Shown in pieces: positions 8,615 through 17,512 of a stretch of DNA of 54,415 nt (the first letter of the stretch is position 1; each line of letters begins with the position of its first letter). The translations under genes and the position numbers were made by a program. The notes under the pieces were generated by a model, which saw nothing but the letters and a program-made list of their open reading frames with translations, did not search any database and was not told where the DNA came from. The stretch comes from Verrucomicrobiales bacterium. Its GTDB lineage: Bacteria; Verrucomicrobiota; Verrucomicrobiia; Verrucomicrobiales; DEV007. The stretch is taken from positions 1 through 54,415 of the forward strand of contig JARGNI010000038.1 in NCBI GenBank assembly GCA_029213195.1, given 5' to 3'.

Positions 8615-11600
8615 TTAATTTTCACTGGCTCGCTTCGGCTGCGCTCTCTTCCGCTTCTGAAAGGCGGAAATATCCTCTTTCAAGACCTGCACCGCTTTCT
8701 CGATTTGACGGTCTTTGCCAATGGGGAGCTCTCCTGGCTTGTTCCAGACCACGAAATCGGGTTTCGCGCCGTTCATCTCCATATCGGCTCCATCGCTGAG
8801 GCGGAACCAGCCACGGAAGGGGATGCGGAGCGTGCCGACATCCATGATGCCTTTGGAGCCGGTGGAGATCACCCCGCCGGAGGTTTCAACTCCGACGAGT
8901 TTTCCTCGGCCGAGATGTTTCACTGCGTGACTGAAGATCTCGGCATTGGAGAAACTGTTCTGATTGCAAAGAACGGTGATCGGTTTGCTCCACGTAGCAT
9001 AGACCCTCCGGTCTTGCGGATACCCCGGGGCGCCTCCTCTCGGAACGGTGAAAGCGTGCTCGGGAGGAGTCAGAACGGTGAGCAGGTGATCGGCGGTGAA
9101 GCCACCTCCATTGTTCCGGACATCGATGATGAGCCCCTCCTTTCCAGCCCCTCGAGCATAGATTTCTTCTTCGAACTTGATGAACTCGTCCCACTGCATT
9201 CGAGGGACATAGACGTAGCCGATCCTGCCCTGGCTGAGCTTGTCGACCATGCGTCGATTCTGGCGAATGAGATCGGCGCGCATCAGGTTGCGAATGGTGG
9301 AGAAGGAGACGGGACGAATCCGTACCTCGCGGTCCTTTGGCTTGGCCTTGGCTGCTTCCTTTCCTTCGGCTTCCTCTTTAGGCCCGGGCAGGCCGCGAAC
9401 CTTGAGTCGGGTTTCGCGTTCGAGCGGACCGTTGAGGAGGGAAGTGAGATCGGTCTTCCGGTCGACCTTGATGCCATCGATTTCGAGAATGGTTTCTCCG
9501 ACTTCGAGACGGCTGTCGACCTGGTCTGCGGGTCCTCTCGCTACAACGGACTGGATCTTGAGACCCGGGCCGCCAAAGAATCGATCCCAGGTTACGCCCA
9601 GATGCGCGGTCGAGGGGTTCCATCCGGTTTCCGGTTTCCATCTCGTTTCTCCAAAGGCGGTCGAGGAAGCCCGGAATCCGAGATGGGATCCATTCAACTC
9701 TCCCAGCATCATGCCTACGGCGCGTTCGAAGACTCGGTTGTCGGCGGCCTGAGATGCGATCGGGGTGTATTTTTCGCCGATCTTTTCCCAGTCGAGATTG
9801 TTCAGGTTCGGATCGTACCAGATATCGCCCATCGTTCGCCAGATGTGGCGGAAGGCGGCACGACGATAGTCGGCGAGCTCCATCTCCTGCAGGGCTCGAA
9901 AGGAATAGGATTTGAAACTGCCCTTGGAGAGCGAGGCCGGGACGCCATTGACGAGCCAGAGGACGGTGTCGTTCTTCGGGATCCAGCGAGCGAGAGATCC
10001 GCGCTTGGAATAGAGGGTTGAGGGAGAGGTGAGCTTGTCAGGAAAGGTTACGAAGTAGGTCGCATCGACATTCTTGATCTTGGCACCAAAGGCGAGGCGT
10101 TTCGAGTCATGGGCCCAGAAAAGGTTTTCCTCGGTCGAATCCGGGATCGAGATCCGGCGAATGCGCTCGTAGATGCCCTCGAAATCGATTTTGACTTCAG
10201 GCGGTTTGGGGCCGGTGGAAGCGGTGGGCTTCTCTTCTTCCTTGGCGACCGGTTTGGGAGTTTCTTTCTTGGAAGTCTCGTCCGGCTTCTTCGTGGGCTC
10301 GGTCTTTTGATTCGTTGGTTCCGGTTTCGCGGGTGCAGGTTTCTTGGCCTGGTTTCCGGATTCCGTCTTCGATGGCTCAACTTCGGGCTCTGGAGCATCC
10401 TGTTGAGGATCGGGTGTCTTCGCAGGTGGCTTGGGCGGAGTTGGTTTCTTGCGCTCTTTCGACATCTTTGTCAGGGCGTTCTTGAGAGCGCGGTCACGAC
10501 GGTCCTCTTCCTCGTCGGCCCGGGAAAGATAGACATAGTAAATGTCGGTTTCCTTATCGAAGCGCCTTCCGGTGAAGGCGAGAATTTTTCCGTTGGGTGA
10601 CCACCTGGGGTTGCTGTCCGAGTCTGGATGGCGGGAGAGATTATACGGTTTCCGTTTTCCGTCGGCAGGAGCGATCCAGATGTCACGGTTGAAATCGGAG
10701 TCACTTTTTGCGTAGGCGATCCATTTCCCGTCGGGAGACCAGTCATAGGGCATCGGGCTCCACGATTCGATCAGGCGTCGAGCGTTCTTCCCATTCGGAT
10801 CGGAGATCCAGAGATCGCCTCGCCCCACGTGATAGCAGATCTTCTTTCCTCCGGGAACAAAGGTGAGATCGTGCTTGGTCTTTCCATCCCTGGTAATCTG
10901 CGTCTCGTTGAACTCACGATTCTGCCACCAGTAGCGCTTGGGGTCAGCCCGCCGGACGGACCAGATGTCCGCCGTTTCTCCATCGTCCCGGATGAAGAGG
11001 ATGGAGTTTCCGTCCGGGCTCATGACGGGTTCGCGTTCTTCGGCTGCGGTCTGGGTGAGGGGGACGGGCTCCTTCAGTTCGGTATCCATGATCCAGACAT
11101 CTCCACCTGCCGTGAATGCCATTTCCAGGCCATCCTCGCTGAAGCTCACGTTGTTTGCCTTGGTCAGGGTGCGGCGAAGAGTGGCGTCTCGTGAGAGGTC
11201 GCCGGTGGGGCGGAGAGTGATCTTTCGCGGTCTACCCTTGTTGCCCTTTGCCTTGGGATGGAGCCGGACGAAATCGAATCCCGATCGATAGACGAGGACG
11301 GAACCGCTTCGAGAGACTGCGGGAAGCAGGGCGGGATCGTGTTTCTGCGGGGCGATTTCCTTTTCCTCTCCCGTTGTGAGGTCGTAGCTCCAGAGCGAGA
11401 AAAGTTCGCTTTCTCCATGGTCTCCTGCGTAGTAGAATCCCGAACCATCCGGCTTCCAGAGAGGGGAGTTGGCGCCGGTCTCGCGGGCGATCACCTGGGT
11501 GAACTTGGGCTGCCTGGTTTCGAGGTTCTCGGCCAGCCAGATCTGAGAGGATCGCGACCCACGATATCCTCGCCGGTAGAGATCCCCGCCTTCGCGAGTG

Positions 11601-12154
11601 AAGAGAAGTTTCTTTCCATCAGGAGAAAGCGAAGCGGTCCCGAATCCGTGTTCGGCGTCGAAGAGCAGAACTTCTGCATTCCGATGCTCGAGAGAAACTC
11701 GGTAGAATCGATAGGCGCTCCGGGTTCCGAAATCTCTCTGACCTCGGATGAGGAGTGATTTTCCATCAGGATACCAATCGACGCCTCGCGAGCCTTCGCT
11801 GTGAAAGGTCACCTGGCGGGGCATTCCACCATTCAGGGGCACCGTGAAAACCTGGTCGGCCCCGGTCCGATTGCTGGTGAATGCCAGGGTTTTTCCATCG
11901 GGTGAAAAAAGCGGAACTCCGTCGATCGCCGGATGGGTCGTGATGCGGCGGGCGTTTCCTCCCCGGGAGGGGGCGATCCAGATGTCGCCGGCCCAGGCGA
12001 AGGAGAGCTTCGAGCCGTCAGGAGAGAGCGCGGGCATCGTGGCCAAGCGAATCGGAACAGGTGTGTCTTCTCCCAGCAAAGGGGTTGGAAGGTGCGATTC
12101 GACAAGTAGGAGGCTGCTGATGAGCAGTGTTAGGGATTTAGGAATTACACTCAT
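8615..12154 (-). CDS. Tricorn-like secreted protease (PD40 propeller, PDZ, S41)
   Basis: Product of 1179 residues from the ATG at 12154, chosen because it gives a signal peptide with the core LTLLISSLLLV; longer frames upstream lack one. Residues about 30-555 contain repeated propeller blades of the PD40/WD40-like type (for example ALSPDGSKLSFAW and LFSPDGKTLAFTS). A Pro/Lys/Glu/Thr-rich linker of about 100 residues (about 558-655) is an unusual insertion. The catalytic half has the C1-type helical region (FRHIWRTMGDIWYD, His about 772), a PDZ domain (about 890-975) and an S41 peptidase domain with nucleophile Ser in NSFSNAEIF (about 1065) and GVETSGGVI. Tricorn peptidases degrade oligopeptides; the signal peptide suggests a periplasmic role. 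The gene is divergent from the solute-binding protein at 12.3 kb. Confidence 0.9.
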   Translation of the reverse strand: MSVIPKSLTLLISSLLLVESHLPTPLLGEDTPVPIRLATMPALSPDGSKLSFAWAGDIWIAPSRGGNARRITTHPAIDGVPLFSPDGKTLAFTSNRTGADQVFTVPLNGGMPRQVTFHSEGSRGVDWYPDGKSLLIRGQRDFGTRSAYRFYRVSLEHRNAEVLLFDAEHGFGTASLSPDGKKLLFTREGGDLYRRGYRGSRSSQIWLAENLETRQPKFTQVIARETGANSPLWKPDGSGFYYAGDHGESELFSLWSYDLTTGEEKEIAPQKHDPALLPAVSRSGSVLVYRSGFDFVRLHPKAKGNKGRPRKITLRPTGDLSRDATLRRTLTKANNVSFSEDGLEMAFTAGGDVWIMDTELKEPVPLTQTAAEEREPVMSPDGNSILFIRDDGETADIWSVRRADPKRYWWQNREFNETQITRDGKTKHDLTFVPGGKKICYHVGRGDLWISDPNGKNARRLIESWSPMPYDWSPDGKWIAYAKSDSDFNRDIWIAPADGKRKPYNLSRHPDSDSNPRWSPNGKILAFTGRRFDKETDIYYVYLSRADEEEDRRDRALKNALTKMSKERKKPTPPKPPAKTPDPQQDAPEPEVEPSKTESGNQAKKPAPAKPEPTNQKTEPTKKPDETSKKETPKPVAKEEEKPTASTGPKPPEVKIDFEGIYERIRRISIPDSTEENLFWAHDSKRLAFGAKIKNVDATYFVTFPDKLTSPSTLYSKRGSLARWIPKNDTVLWLVNGVPASLSKGSFKSYSFRALQEMELADYRRAAFRHIWRTMGDIWYDPNLNNLDWEKIGEKYTPIASQAADNRVFERAVGMMLGELNGSHLGFRASSTAFGETRWKPETGWNPSTAHLGVTWDRFFGGPGLKIQSVVARGPADQVDSRLEVGETILEIDGIKVDRKTDLTSLLNGPLERETRLKVRGLPGPKEEAEGKEAAKAKPKDREVRIRPVSFSTIRNLMRADLIRQNRRMVDKLSQGRIGYVYVPRMQWDEFIKFEEEIYARGAGKEGLIIDVRNNGGGFTADHLLTVLTPPEHAFTVPRGGAPGYPQDRRVYATWSKPITVLCNQNSFSNAEIFSHAVKHLGRGKLVGVETSGGVISTGSKGIMDVGTLRIPFRGWFRLSDGADMEMNGAKPDFVVWNKPGELPIGKDRQIEKAVQVLKEDISAFQKRKRAQPKRASEN

Positions 12155-12311
12155 GATGGCAGATGTGAGAGCTTGCGAGGGGAGGGGGATTGTGGCGGAC
12201 GAGGTTTCCGCTGTCGAATCCTGATTGGAGTTTCTGGGAACGCGAAGCCGGGAGGGGATTTCCCTCATGCGCGTGGTTGCCTCTCGATCGAATTGGCGGA
12301 GAATGGACGGC

Positions 12312-13127
12312 ATGATGGTCTCGCGAAGTTTTTTGCTCTCGGTTTTCCTCCCTCTGTGCGCCGGAGTTGCGATGACCGTTTTCTCATCCTGCACGGGGAA
12401 GGATGAGGAATCGAACACCCTCGTGGTAGGAATGGAGCTGGCCTACCCACCTTTCGAAATGCGGGGTCCGGACAACAAGCCTGACGGCATCAGTGTGAGA
12501 ATGGCCGAGGATCTCGCCGATCACCTGGGAAGACCGCTCGAGATCCGGGATGTGGAGTGGAACGGGATCATTCCGGCTCTTCGTTCTGAAAAGATCGACC
12601 TCATTATCTCCTCGATGACACGAACTCCCGAGCGGGAACGGACCATTGCCTTTTCGGATGGCTACGTGACCAATGGGCTTTGTATGCTCGTGAGAAAGGA
12701 TTCGAAGCTGAACTCGATCGACGATGTCGTAGCCGGAGAGCACAAGATCGCGGTGAAACTGGCGACCACGGGACACCAGTGGGCTCGGCAAGCTCTCGAT
12801 GGCGTTGACCTGATCACCCTGGATGAAGCTGCGGCGTGCGTTCTCGAGGTCGTGCAGGGCAAGGCCGATGCTTTCATCTACGACCAGATCTCGATCTATC
12901 AATTCTGGAAGAAATACGAGGGAGAGACCCGCCCCATTCTCAATCCGATTCGGGAAGAAACCTGGGCGGTTGGTCTCCGACAGGAGGACGAAGCTCTCAA
13001 AGAGCAGGTGAATCAGTTTCTGAAGGAGTATCGCGAGAAAGGTCGCTTCAACGAGCTCGCCGAAGAGTACATGGCCGAACAGAAAGCTGCCTTCGAAGAA
13101 ATGGGCGTGCCGTTCATCTTTCACTAG
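12312..13127 (+). CDS. Orphan amino-acid-type solute-binding lipoprotein
   Basis: Product of 271 residues from the ATG at 12312; GGAG at 12298-12301 is 10 bases upstream. A lipoprotein signal ends in lipobox FSSC, near residue 27. The rest is a type-3 extracellular solute-binding domain: VVGMELAYPPFEM starts lobe 1, DGISVRMAEDLADHLG and IIPALRSEKIDLIISSMTRT follow, and AVGLRQEDEAL and LKEYREKGRF lie near the C-terminus. These proteins capture polar amino acids or similar ligands for an ABC importer or present them to sensors. No permease or ATPase gene is adjacent, so the partner is elsewhere. The next feature downstream is a palindrome and the dnaK promoter region. Confidence 0.9.
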   Translation: MMVSRSFLLSVFLPLCAGVAMTVFSSCTGKDEESNTLVVGMELAYPPFEMRGPDNKPDGISVRMAEDLADHLGRPLEIRDVEWNGIIPALRSEKIDLIISSMTRTPERERTIAFSDGYVTNGLCMLVRKDSKLNSIDDVVAGEHKIAVKLATTGHQWARQALDGVDLITLDEAAACVLEVVQGKADAFIYDQISIYQFWKKYEGETRPILNPIREETWAVGLRQEDEALKEQVNQFLKEYREKGRFNELAEEYMAEQKAAFEEMGVPFIFH

Positions 13128-13144
13128 TGCGCATTCTGGCACTC

Positions 13145-13163
13145 CTGCGTCAAAATGACGCAG
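13145..13163 (+). promoter_or_regulatory. Perfect palindrome upstream of the dnaK sigma-54 promoter
   Basis: CTGCGTCA-AAA-TGACGCAG is a perfect 8-bp inverted repeat with a 3-base spacer. Its centre is about 130 bases upstream of the -24 element, a normal distance for the enhancer bound by a sigma-54 activator. It also starts 18 bases after the preceding gene's stop codon, so a terminator hairpin is the alternative. No T-tract follows and the loop would be only three bases. Confidence 0.5.
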
Positions 13164-13279
13164 CGTTTCGGATCAATAGCGCCATAACTGCGCGATTCTT
13201 GGGATTCCAGCAGCTCAGGTTTTTGCGTTTGTTTTTATAACCCGTTGAAAACAAATGAGTTAAGATTGAGTTTGCCCGT

Positions 13280-13296
13280 CTGGCACGGCGATTGCA
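13280..13296 (+). promoter_or_regulatory. Sigma-54 (-24/-12) promoter of dnaK
   Basis: CTGGCACGGCGATTGCA agrees at every conserved position with the sigma-54 consensus TGGCACG-N4-TTGCA. GG (13282-13283) and GC (13294-13295) are separated by exactly ten bases. Transcription would start near 13307, leaving a leader of about 77 bases before the dnaK ATG. Neither a CIRCE element nor a recognisable sigma-32-type promoter is visible in 13128-13383. Confidence 0.8.
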
Positions 13297-13383
13297 CTTC
13301 CTGCCGACAGGAAATTTGCGCTGCGGCGCACCAGAAAACCCCGTGTCCAAGTGATTGGGCGCACCAAAAGAAGGAGACAACTT

Positions 13384-15339
13384 ATGAGTAAAATTCTTGG
13401 AATTGATTTAGGAACGACCAACTCGTGCATGGCTGTCATGGAAGGCGGCCAACCATCCGTGTTGGAGAATGCAGAAGGCGCACGGACGACTCCGTCGGTG
13501 GTGGCTTTCTCGAAGGATGGAGAGCGTCTCGTTGGCCAGGCGGCCAAGCGACAGGCGATCACCAATCCAAAAAACACGATCTTCTCGGCAAAGAGACTGA
13601 TCGGTCGGAAGTTTGACGAACTCTCCGAAGAAGAAAAGAAGACCCCCTACGAGATCGTGAAGGCATCGAACGGAGATGCTCACATCAAGATCGAAGTTGG
13701 TGGGGAAGAGAAGACCTACAGCCCGCAGGAGATTTCTGCGATGGTTCTCGGGAAGCTCAAAGCGGACGCCGAGTCCAAGTTGGGTGAAACCATCTCTGAA
13801 GCGGTGATCACGGTCCCGGCTTATTTCAACGATTCGCAGCGTAACGCGACCAAGGCAGCCGGTGAAATCGCCGGACTCGATGTGAAGCGGATCGTCAACG
13901 AGCCAACCGCTGCCGCTCTTGCCTACGGGCTGGAGAAGGAGGGCGAGGAGAAGATCGCTGTCTACGACCTCGGTGGAGGAACATTCGATATCTCGGTGCT
14001 CGAGATTGATGAAGGCTTTTTCGAAGTGCTTGCGACGGACGGAGACACCCAACTGGGTGGTGATGACTGGGATAGCGCCATCATCAACTCCATCGTCGAT
14101 CAGTTCAAAAAGGACAACGATATCGATCTCAACGGTCAGCCTGACGCGCTTCAGCGGATCAAGGAAGAGGCCGAGAAAGCCAAGATTGCGCTTTCTTCGA
14201 GCCAGTCCTACGAGATCAACCTGCCTTTCATCACGGCCGACCAGAGCGGACCCAAGCACATTCAGCAGACCCTGACTCGGTCCCAGTTGGAGCAGATGAC
14301 GGACCATCTTTTCGAGCGCACCAAGGGGCCGGTGAATGCCTGTCTCAAGGAAGCCGGTGTATCCGCCGGAGACATCGACGAACTCGTGCTCGTGGGTGGA
14401 ATGACTCGTATGCCCAAGGTGGTCGAGACCGCCAAGTCACTGGCAGGAAAGGATCCTCACCAGGGAGTGAACCCCGACGAAGTGGTTGCCGTTGGCGCTG
14501 CGATTCAGGGTGGTGTTCTCGCCAAAGATCCGACCCTCGGTGACGTCGTTCTTCTCGACGTGACTCCGCTGAGCCTCTCCATCGAAACGATGGGTGGCAT
14601 TGCCACTCCGATGATCGAGCGGAATACGACGATCCCGGCGAAGAAGTCCCAGGTCTTTTCGACCGCGGCGGACAATCAGCCATCGGTCGACATTGTGGTT
14701 TGCCAGGGCGAGCGAAAGCTGGTCAGCGACAACAAGATGCTCGGTAACTTCCGCCTCGACGGGATCAACGCGGCTCCTCGCGGGGTTCCCCAGATCGAGG
14801 TGACCTTCGACATCGACCGGAATGGTATTCTCAAGGTTTCCGCCAAGGACAAGGAGACAGGCAAAGAGCAAAACATCTCTATCGAAGGATCCAGCGGTCT
14901 CAGCGACGAAGAGATCGAGAAGGCCAAGCAGGAGGCAGAGAAGTATGCCGACGCCGACAAGGATCGCATGGAAAGCATCGAGGTTCGGAATCTCGCCGAT
15001 AACGCGGTCTACACCGTGAAGAAGCAGCTCGAAGAACTCGGGGAGCAACTCCCAGCGGAAGCCAAGACGGAGATCGAAGCTTCGGTCAAGGAAGTCGAGG
15101 AGGCACTCGAGGCTGACGATACCGAAAAGATCAAGACGGCAACGGATGCCCTCCAGGCGAAGTTCGGTGAACTTGCCGCGGCGGCCCAGCAGGCCGGTGG
15201 AGGAGCTGATCCCATGGCAGCAGCCGCGGCTGCAGCTGCCAGCGCTGGGGGAGGCGAAGAAGCTTCCGAAGAGCCGAAACAGGCCAAGGGCGATGTCGTC
15301 GATGCCGAGTTCGAAGAAGTCGGCGAAGAAAAATCGTAA
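13384..15339 (+). CDS. dnaK: Chaperone protein DnaK
   Basis: Hsp70 chaperone that binds exposed hydrophobic peptides under ATP control, with DnaJ and GrpE as partners. The product has 651 residues from the ATG at 13384, with AAGGAG ten bases upstream. Residues 1-385 form the ATPase domain ([10 protein letters not shown] at 6-15, the [11 protein letters not shown] motif, and VGGMTRMP). The substrate-binding domain follows, with [11 protein letters not shown], then the helical lid and an Ala/Gly/Glu-rich tail ([12 protein letters not shown]). dnaJ, grpE and hrcA are not adjacent; groES and groEL follow after a terminator. The promoter read upstream is of sigma-54 type, an unusual control for this gene. 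Confidence 0.98.
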
Positions 15340-15520: not shown

Positions 15521-15814
15521 ATGGCAACAAACATCACACCTCTCGGAACGCGCGTCCTCGTGAAGCGGATCGAACAGGATGAGCAGAAGTCTGAAGGCGG
15601 CATCTTCCTCCCTGATACCGCAAAAGAGAAACCGCAGGAGGCCGAAGTGGTCGCTCTTGGAAACGGGAAAAACGACGACGGTGAAGTGGTCGAGTTTTCT
15701 GTCAAAGTCGGCGATCAGGTTCTCATCTCCAAGTATGGCGGCACCGAGGTCAAAGTCGGTGGCGACGAGTGCGTTCTCGTCAATGAGAGCGATATCCTCG
15801 GAATCCTCTCCTAA
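15521..15814 (+). CDS. groES: Co-chaperonin GroES
   Basis: The 10-kDa lid of the GroEL chamber. The product has 97 residues, with the typical start [15 protein letters not shown], the mobile loop ([10 protein letters not shown], about residues 21-30) and the dome/roof strands ending in the usual [10 protein letters not shown]. groEL follows after 72 bases. The ATG is preceded by an A-rich leader with no Shine-Dalgarno sequence. No CIRCE element is seen between the dnaK terminator and this start, so the type of control is unclear. Confidence 0.97.

Positions 15815-15841: not shown

Positions 15842-17512
<1,671 letters not shown>

Follow-up and report, generated by a model that had tools for sequence, protein, structure and literature searches.

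The dnaK-groES-groEL cluster of a Verrucomicrobiales bacterium was found downstream of a letter-perfect sigma-54 promoter and of 17-bp inverted repeats of the kind bound by sigma-54 activators, and both elements were shown to be conserved in relatives and shared with an hsp20 operon. Judged from the sequence, we consider it about 80% probable that sigma-54, together with a response regulator of the type here called C79, drives dnaK-groESL and hsp20 as a proteostasis regulon. The DNA analyzed (the window) is a stretch of 54,415 bp, contig JARGNI010000038.1, from a 5.9 Mb assembly with a completeness rating of 95%.

Within the window, dnaK (Hsp70; 13384–15339), groES (Cpn10; 15521–15814) and groEL (Cpn60; 15887–17512) follow each other on the plus strand, downstream of a gene for a solute-binding protein (12225–13127). 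The closest named DnaK records were Verrucomicrobiales MAGs, followed by Haloferula, Roseibacillus, Akkermansia, and Prosthecobacter. Directly past the solute-binding protein gene, the minus strand (8615–12418), opposite to that of dnaK, encodes a large protein resembling tricorn-type proteases, with PD40 repeats, PDZ and peptidase S41. The order of the cluster was conserved: groEL was found after dnaK at 24 of 25 loci of the genus, 26 of 28 other loci of the same family, 24 of 24 in the Akkermansia family (f2), 8 of 10 in f3, 24 of 26 in the Prosthecobacter family (f4), 1 of 1 in f5 and 1 of 2 in f6, some of the loci counted being too short to show whether groEL follows.

The initial annotation had proposed a sigma-54 -24/-12 site with exact GG-GC spacing before dnaK, and this proved correct. 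By pattern match and conservation, TGGCACGGCGATTGCA at 13281–13296 (plus strand) was identified as the promoter; it reads TGGCACG-N4-TTGCA and agrees at every letter with TGGCACG-N4-TTGCW, including the GG-N10-GC spacing. Taken alone, this match is weak evidence and was not beyond chance genome-wide. Four matches with up to two mismatches to the -24/-12 pattern were found in the window versus 5.5 expected, and in the whole genome the exact pattern occurred only twice, while with up to one mismatch it occurred 37 times (14 + 23) compared to 33 (12 + 21) for a reversed control pattern. Such weak single-site statistics are what would be seen if the promoter and the palindrome upstream of it were unrelated chance matches; the significance of the dnaK site comes from its conservation in relatives and not from these counts. 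The gene rpoN, whose absence had been named as an argument against the proposal, is present, with one Sigma54_DBD match (E 7.9e-61) in the window's own genome, the only one searched for it. Counted from the -12 element, transcription of dnaK is predicted to start at about 13306, which would give a 5′ untranslated leader at 13306–13383 (plus strand) with an AAGGAGA ribosome site. This leader folded slightly better than shuffled sequences (z -1.76), and an Rfam search of 12900–13700 gave no match over the gathering score and one sub-threshold match inside dnaK. Because of the weak fold and the Rfam result, the idea of an RNA thermometer was dropped.

A dnaK match was obtained in 120 of 141 relatives searched, and 116 upstream regions were analyzed. 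Left out were G036, G062, and G084, in which the match or contig begins inside or at the gene, L097, for which no start was set, and a second, partial dnaK match in G075. The best GG-N10-GC site within 200 nt before the dnaK ATG scored 8 of 11 or more in all 116 upstreams, 9 or more in 109 and 10 or more in 78, so that the conservation in relatives proposed as a check was confirmed. The corresponding numbers were 6.0, 1.2, and 0.1 for shuffled sequences, 35, 15, and 4 for the reverse strand, and 7, 0, and 0 of 111 for the region from -800 to -600; inside dnaK the number of sites was 0. The raised reverse-strand count may reflect that many of the sites are partly self-complementary. Named species with the dnaK sigma-54 promoter include Akkermansia muciniphila CSUN-56, Haloferula luteola, and Prosthecobacter debontii.

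Outside the order, 62 loci were hand-picked from 229 genomes of the phylum with dnaK, and 61 of these had a start. Among upstreams from other orders of the class, 28 of 41 had a dnaK promoter of at least 9 of 11, compared to 0.9 in shuffled sequences and 2 on the reverse strand; among those from other classes, 15 of 20 had one, compared to 0.2 and 1. GG-N10-GC was absent altogether from 3 of the 41 and 1 of the 20. For 32 of the 41 class relatives (L346–L385 being among these upstreams) the best site was located 26–32 nt before the ATG, a few of these sites near the ATG being weak (7–8 of 11). From this position, the dnaK mRNA of eight families would be expected to have no leader or almost none, and little space is left for a downstream promoter. 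The position thus bears on whether the sigma-54 promoter may be minor or developmental, with most of the dnaK transcript coming from an unseen promoter of the sigma-70 type. Cells generally require dnaK at some basal level, which would fit such an arrangement. A precedent is found in Chlamydia, where the hrcA-grpE-dnaK operon is described with tandem sigma-66 and sigma-54 promoters (PMC8762339). A simple scan for sigma-70-like promoters at 13100–13400 gave no match, and with the restricted downstream space in the class relatives this makes a dominant sigma-70-type promoter rather unlikely.

Upstream of the promoter, the perfect 19-base palindrome of the initial annotation was found by sequence inspection to consist of two perfect 8-base arms (13145–13163), whereas its AAA center is not symmetric; the element is an inverted repeat of 8 + 3 + 8 bases. 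No other copy of the 19-base pattern was present in the window with up to two mismatches, the sole further match having three. The repeat is one copy of a 17-bp motif, TGYGYCA-N3-TGRCRCA. Its 17-base core, UAS1 (TGCGTCAAAATGACGCA; 13146–13162; motif and matrix match), lies at -135 from the -24 element, and a degenerate second copy detected with the matrix, UAS2 (AGCGCCATAACTGCGCG; 13178–13194), lies at -103. The window thus contains one perfect and one degenerate enhancer copy at the phases seen in relatives, many of which have better UAS2 matches at -104.

Within the genus, the 17-mer was found with up to two mismatches in 24 of 25 dnaK upstreams (40 sites versus 0.15 expected). A matrix trained on 41 dnaK sites of the genus was run on 89 genomes of other genera (two more being dropped for short flanks), and at least one site was detected in 73 of them versus 1.6 expected: 26 of 26 in the same family, 20 of 24 in f2, 10 of 10 in f3, 14 of 26 in f4 and 3 of 3 in f5/f6, the remaining 12 f4 and 4 f2 genomes being under the threshold. 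The positions peaked at -104 and -136, 32 bp apart. For Akkermansia, the enhancer was present before dnaK in 16 of 20 genomes and the promoter (at least 9 of 11) in 20 of 20. In g24, the Prosthecobacter-type main genus of f4, only 5 of 17 dnaK upstreams contained the enhancer, yet all 17 had the promoter at 9 of 11 or better. At a lower threshold, the enhancer was detected in 22 of 41 upstreams from the class and, beyond the class, in 17 of 20 (0.6 expected each). The conservation at a fixed phase supports the view that the repeat serves as an upstream activator enhancer.

The spacer between enhancer and promoter of dnaK was shown to contain a conserved AA-N4-TT element. Scanned in either direction with the IHF consensus as generally known, 27 of 116 spacers contained a perfect match (1.0 in shuffled spacers) and 74 a match with up to one mismatch (16.9 shuffled). 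In the window, the IHF-like bending site is located at 13238–13250 and differs from the consensus by one mismatch.

In the window's own genome, the 17-mer was found with up to one mismatch at seven places (reversed control 2). All seven were checked for a sigma-54-like site (at least 8 of 11) 60–220 nt downstream, and two had one, namely dnaK and an Hsp20 operon at G000:C100:13217, whose two consecutive Hsp20 genes lie downstream of two enhancer copies and TGGCACAGCGAATGCA; none was found downstream of the other five. Looking for the palindrome elsewhere in the genome, as the initial annotation had advised, thus yielded one further site with a sigma-54 promoter, situated before a heat-shock operon. 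This Hsp20 was detected (E 1e-8) in 88 of 141 genomes, none of them Akkermansia. From 30 hsp20 loci examined, four were set aside, and all 26 usable upstreams, own genome included, contained both promoter and enhancer, compared to chance values of 0.8 for the promoter and 0.05 for the enhancer singly and 0.0 for both together. The enhancers in these 26 upstreams were located only at -92 to -95 and -135 to -139, mainly at -94 and -138. One of the loci set aside lies on a contig too short for the enhancer and has the promoter, and the other three, with a mis-set start, showed the same architecture once the start was reset. Among 20 further hsp20 upstreams, mostly from f4, the promoter scored at least 8 in 19, and 14 had an enhancer match scoring at least 10, including L452 and L458, in which the hsp20 start is uncertain and the match is off the usual phase; the six upstreams without a hit all belong to g24. 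Only dnaK sites had been used to train the matrix, so that the hsp20 result is out-of-sample. More than one heat-shock operon was thus found to carry the same enhancer and promoter, the chaperone genes covered being dnaK-groESL and hsp20. Conservation, phasing and the independent hsp20 test contradict an origin of promoter and palindrome by unrelated chance matches, which we consider extremely improbable.

The usual explanations for the induction of chaperones are sigma-32, HrcA, HspR, or CtsR. In the order, HrcA gave a match in 0 of 141 genomes (the control was positive in 7 of 14 genomes), RpoH scored over the cut-off in 0 of 141, and the best CIRCE match within 400 bases upstream of dnaK had at least 5 mismatches of 18 in 116 of 116 upstreams. 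This agrees with the initial annotation, in which neither a sigma-32 nor an HrcA/CIRCE element had been seen at dnaK. The best RpoH score was 322.1 in G071 versus a cut-off of 323.1, and the own genome reached 186.8 bits. A sigma-70-family protein encoded at G000:C89:163679-164464 matched the RpoH model with about 187 bits, the cut-off being 323, and similar proteins of about 187 bits were found in most genomes of the order outside Akkermansia. Another stress sigma factor is therefore possible, and a diverged functional analogue of RpoH may exist.

The search for an activator in the own genome gave eleven PF00158 matches, five of them strong. Three were rejected: C92 is RtcR, C81b gave no HTH_8 match, and C65 does not contain GAFTGA; this left C81a and C79. 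A near-consensus sigma-54 site (TGGCACGGCGAATGCA; G000:C92:6262-6277) was observed about 150 bases before the RtcR frame, on the other strand and pointing away from it, and is perhaps the promoter of an RNA-repair operon. The C79 protein (G000:C79:53635-55050) contains a receiver domain (PF00072), an AAA+ domain (PF00158) with GAFTGA and a Fis-type HTH (PF02954). Its orthologs were present in 133 of 141 genomes of the order and in 97 of 99 good genomes; at the same threshold, C79-type matches were found in 228 of 240 genomes of the phylum, of which the distant ones may include paralogs. The recognition helix SRRT(M/L)QRKL, or nearly so, was seen in sampled proteins from f1, f4, f6, and Akkermansia. 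A tree of 30 of the 73 matches from the activator search and the own five placed one Akkermansia protein type with C79.

A different enhancer-binding protein, or several, could bind the 17-mer, and C81a, which possesses a receiver, GSFTGA, and HTH_8, would be a candidate. Its HTH differs, and no Akkermansia protein grouped with C81a although dnaK of Akkermansia has the promoter in 20 of 20 genomes and the enhancer in 16 of 20. The six Akkermansia genomes searched had two sigma-54 activator-type proteins each. We consider binding by another activator unlikely. By elimination and conservation, the C79 response regulator is most likely the activator. In the 0.9 Mb genomes G170 and G190, the single activator candidate reported is the C79 ortholog, and their dnaK upstreams have weak sigma-54 matches. 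In G011, the contig with dnaK was observed to carry another sigma-54 activator gene (G011:C18:583989), at a distance of about 9 kb.

Beside the C79-type gene, a PAS histidine kinase with no evident membrane segment was found to be encoded at no fewer than 33 of 38 loci. The best NCBIfam matches of regulator and kinase were AtoC and AtoS, both below the cut-off; the C79 protein scored 473.1 of 714 bits for AtoC and 415.4 of 558.6 for NtrC (TIGR01818), neither equivalog cut-off being reached. About 100 bases before the start of the C79 kinase, a 17-mer (L151:1501-1517; G000:C79:52301) is located inside the coding sequence of cutA, which lies on the other strand. Similar 17-mers were seen at 18 of 30 activator loci, of which 25 had an anchor and were scanned. 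Autoregulation of the C79 activator operon was considered and set aside, as the 17-mer lies within cutA and, in the own genome, is not followed by a sigma-54 site.

We propose that sigma-54 RNA polymerase would transcribe dnaK-groES-groEL, probably as one unit, from the promoter at 13281–13296. An NtrC-type activator, presumably the C79 regulator after phosphorylation by the soluble PAS histidine kinase of the adjacent gene, would bind the strong (13146–13162) and the weak (13178–13194) 17-bp site, DNA bending at 13238–13250 would bring it to the polymerase, and the promoter would be opened by ATP hydrolysis. The same activator would control the hsp20 operon, so that the two operons would form a sigma-54 proteostasis (heat-shock) regulon standing in place of the HrcA/CIRCE or sigma-32 control of other bacteria. 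Control of proteostasis by an enhancer-binding protein, as suggested by the initial annotation, is thus supported by the presence of rpoN, the promoter conservation, the phased enhancer and the hsp20 target. Heat or another stress is the signal that the targets suggest. The sigma-54 promoter may also be real and respond to nitrogen, carbon, redox, or growth phase, with the chaperones carried along. Kinase and regulator resemble AtoS/AtoC and NtrB/NtrC while being under the cut-off of every named family listed, the sensor is of the soluble PAS type, and the distant relative Chlamydia is described as using its sigma-54 system for development (PMC7482065). Both promoter-bearing targets found are, however, chaperone operons, and the other five enhancer-like places have no sigma-54 site; a signal other than stress is possible and, on balance, somewhat doubtful.

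A link between sigma-54 and chaperones is known in kind, since it has been published for Planctomycetota, Bacteroidota, and Chlamydia. For Planctomycetota and Bacteroidota, enrichment of sigma-54 promoter-matrix matches was reported before the GroEL, IbpA, GroES, GrpE, DnaJ, and DnaK families, and sigma-54 dependence is cited there for GrpE and GroES in Bacteroides thetaiotaomicron and GrpE in Flavobacterium psychrophilum (PMC12316311). That system belongs to other phyla: the paper's passages on Verrucomicrobiota or its classes deal with motility, nitrogen fixation, ABC transporters, rpoN itself and a CXXC protein group, and its passages on chaperones name no enhancer, spacing, or activator. 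In the available part of a Methylosinus paper (PMC12727197), dnaK serves as a reference gene only. In the openly licensed literature, as far as its texts were accessible, control of dnaK by sigma-54 was not found to be described for Verrucomicrobiota, and the same texts contained neither the enhancer and its geometry nor the pairing of dnaK-groESL with hsp20, the missing HrcA or the conservation across Verrucomicrobiota. This hints that the enhancer-coupled dnaK-groESL/hsp20 regulon in Verrucomicrobiota may be new to print. If true, it would represent a widespread ATP-driven enhancer switch that is silent without its activator and ties proteostasis to a phosphorelay. For the culturable hosts Akkermansia and Prosthecobacter, it would yield a short list of one sigma factor, an activator, a kinase, a 17-bp site, and two operons.

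HrcA/CIRCE and sigma-32 control the same targets (dnaK, groESL, and hsp20), but unlike in those systems neither the repressor, its operator, nor RpoH over the cut-off was found in Verrucomicrobiales. NtrC-type enhancers are 17-bp inverted repeats about 100–140 bp upstream of the promoter, helically phased and with an IHF site between. The Verrucomicrobiales dnaK region is similar in its 17-bp repeats, helical phasing, and intervening IHF-like site, and differs in its half-site, TGYGYCA versus TGCACCA for NtrC, and in having chaperones as targets. A role of IHF at RpoN promoters has been described (PMC7962754).

A further parallel is seen with Chlamydia, which belongs to the same superphylum and in which a sigma-54 promoter likewise feeds the dnaK operon and an AtoC-like regulator is combined with a sensor kinase. 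Chlamydia keeps HrcA/CIRCE, whereas HrcA was not found in Verrucomicrobiales (0 of 141 genomes). Its regulator CtcC is described as having no DNA-binding domain (PMC7482065), unlike the Verrucomicrobiales regulator, which has a Fis-type HTH; conserved enhancers are also present in Verrucomicrobiales. As a tentative view, which we hold to be less probable than its contrary, heat shock in Verrucomicrobiota, perhaps already in the PVC ancestor, may depend on sigma-54 and one dedicated two-component activator in place of a sigma-70-type factor or a repressor, and CtcB/CtcC of Chlamydia may be a degenerate descendant of this system. The system proposed here would also offer a reason for the retention of a sigma-54 promoter before the chlamydial dnaK operon.
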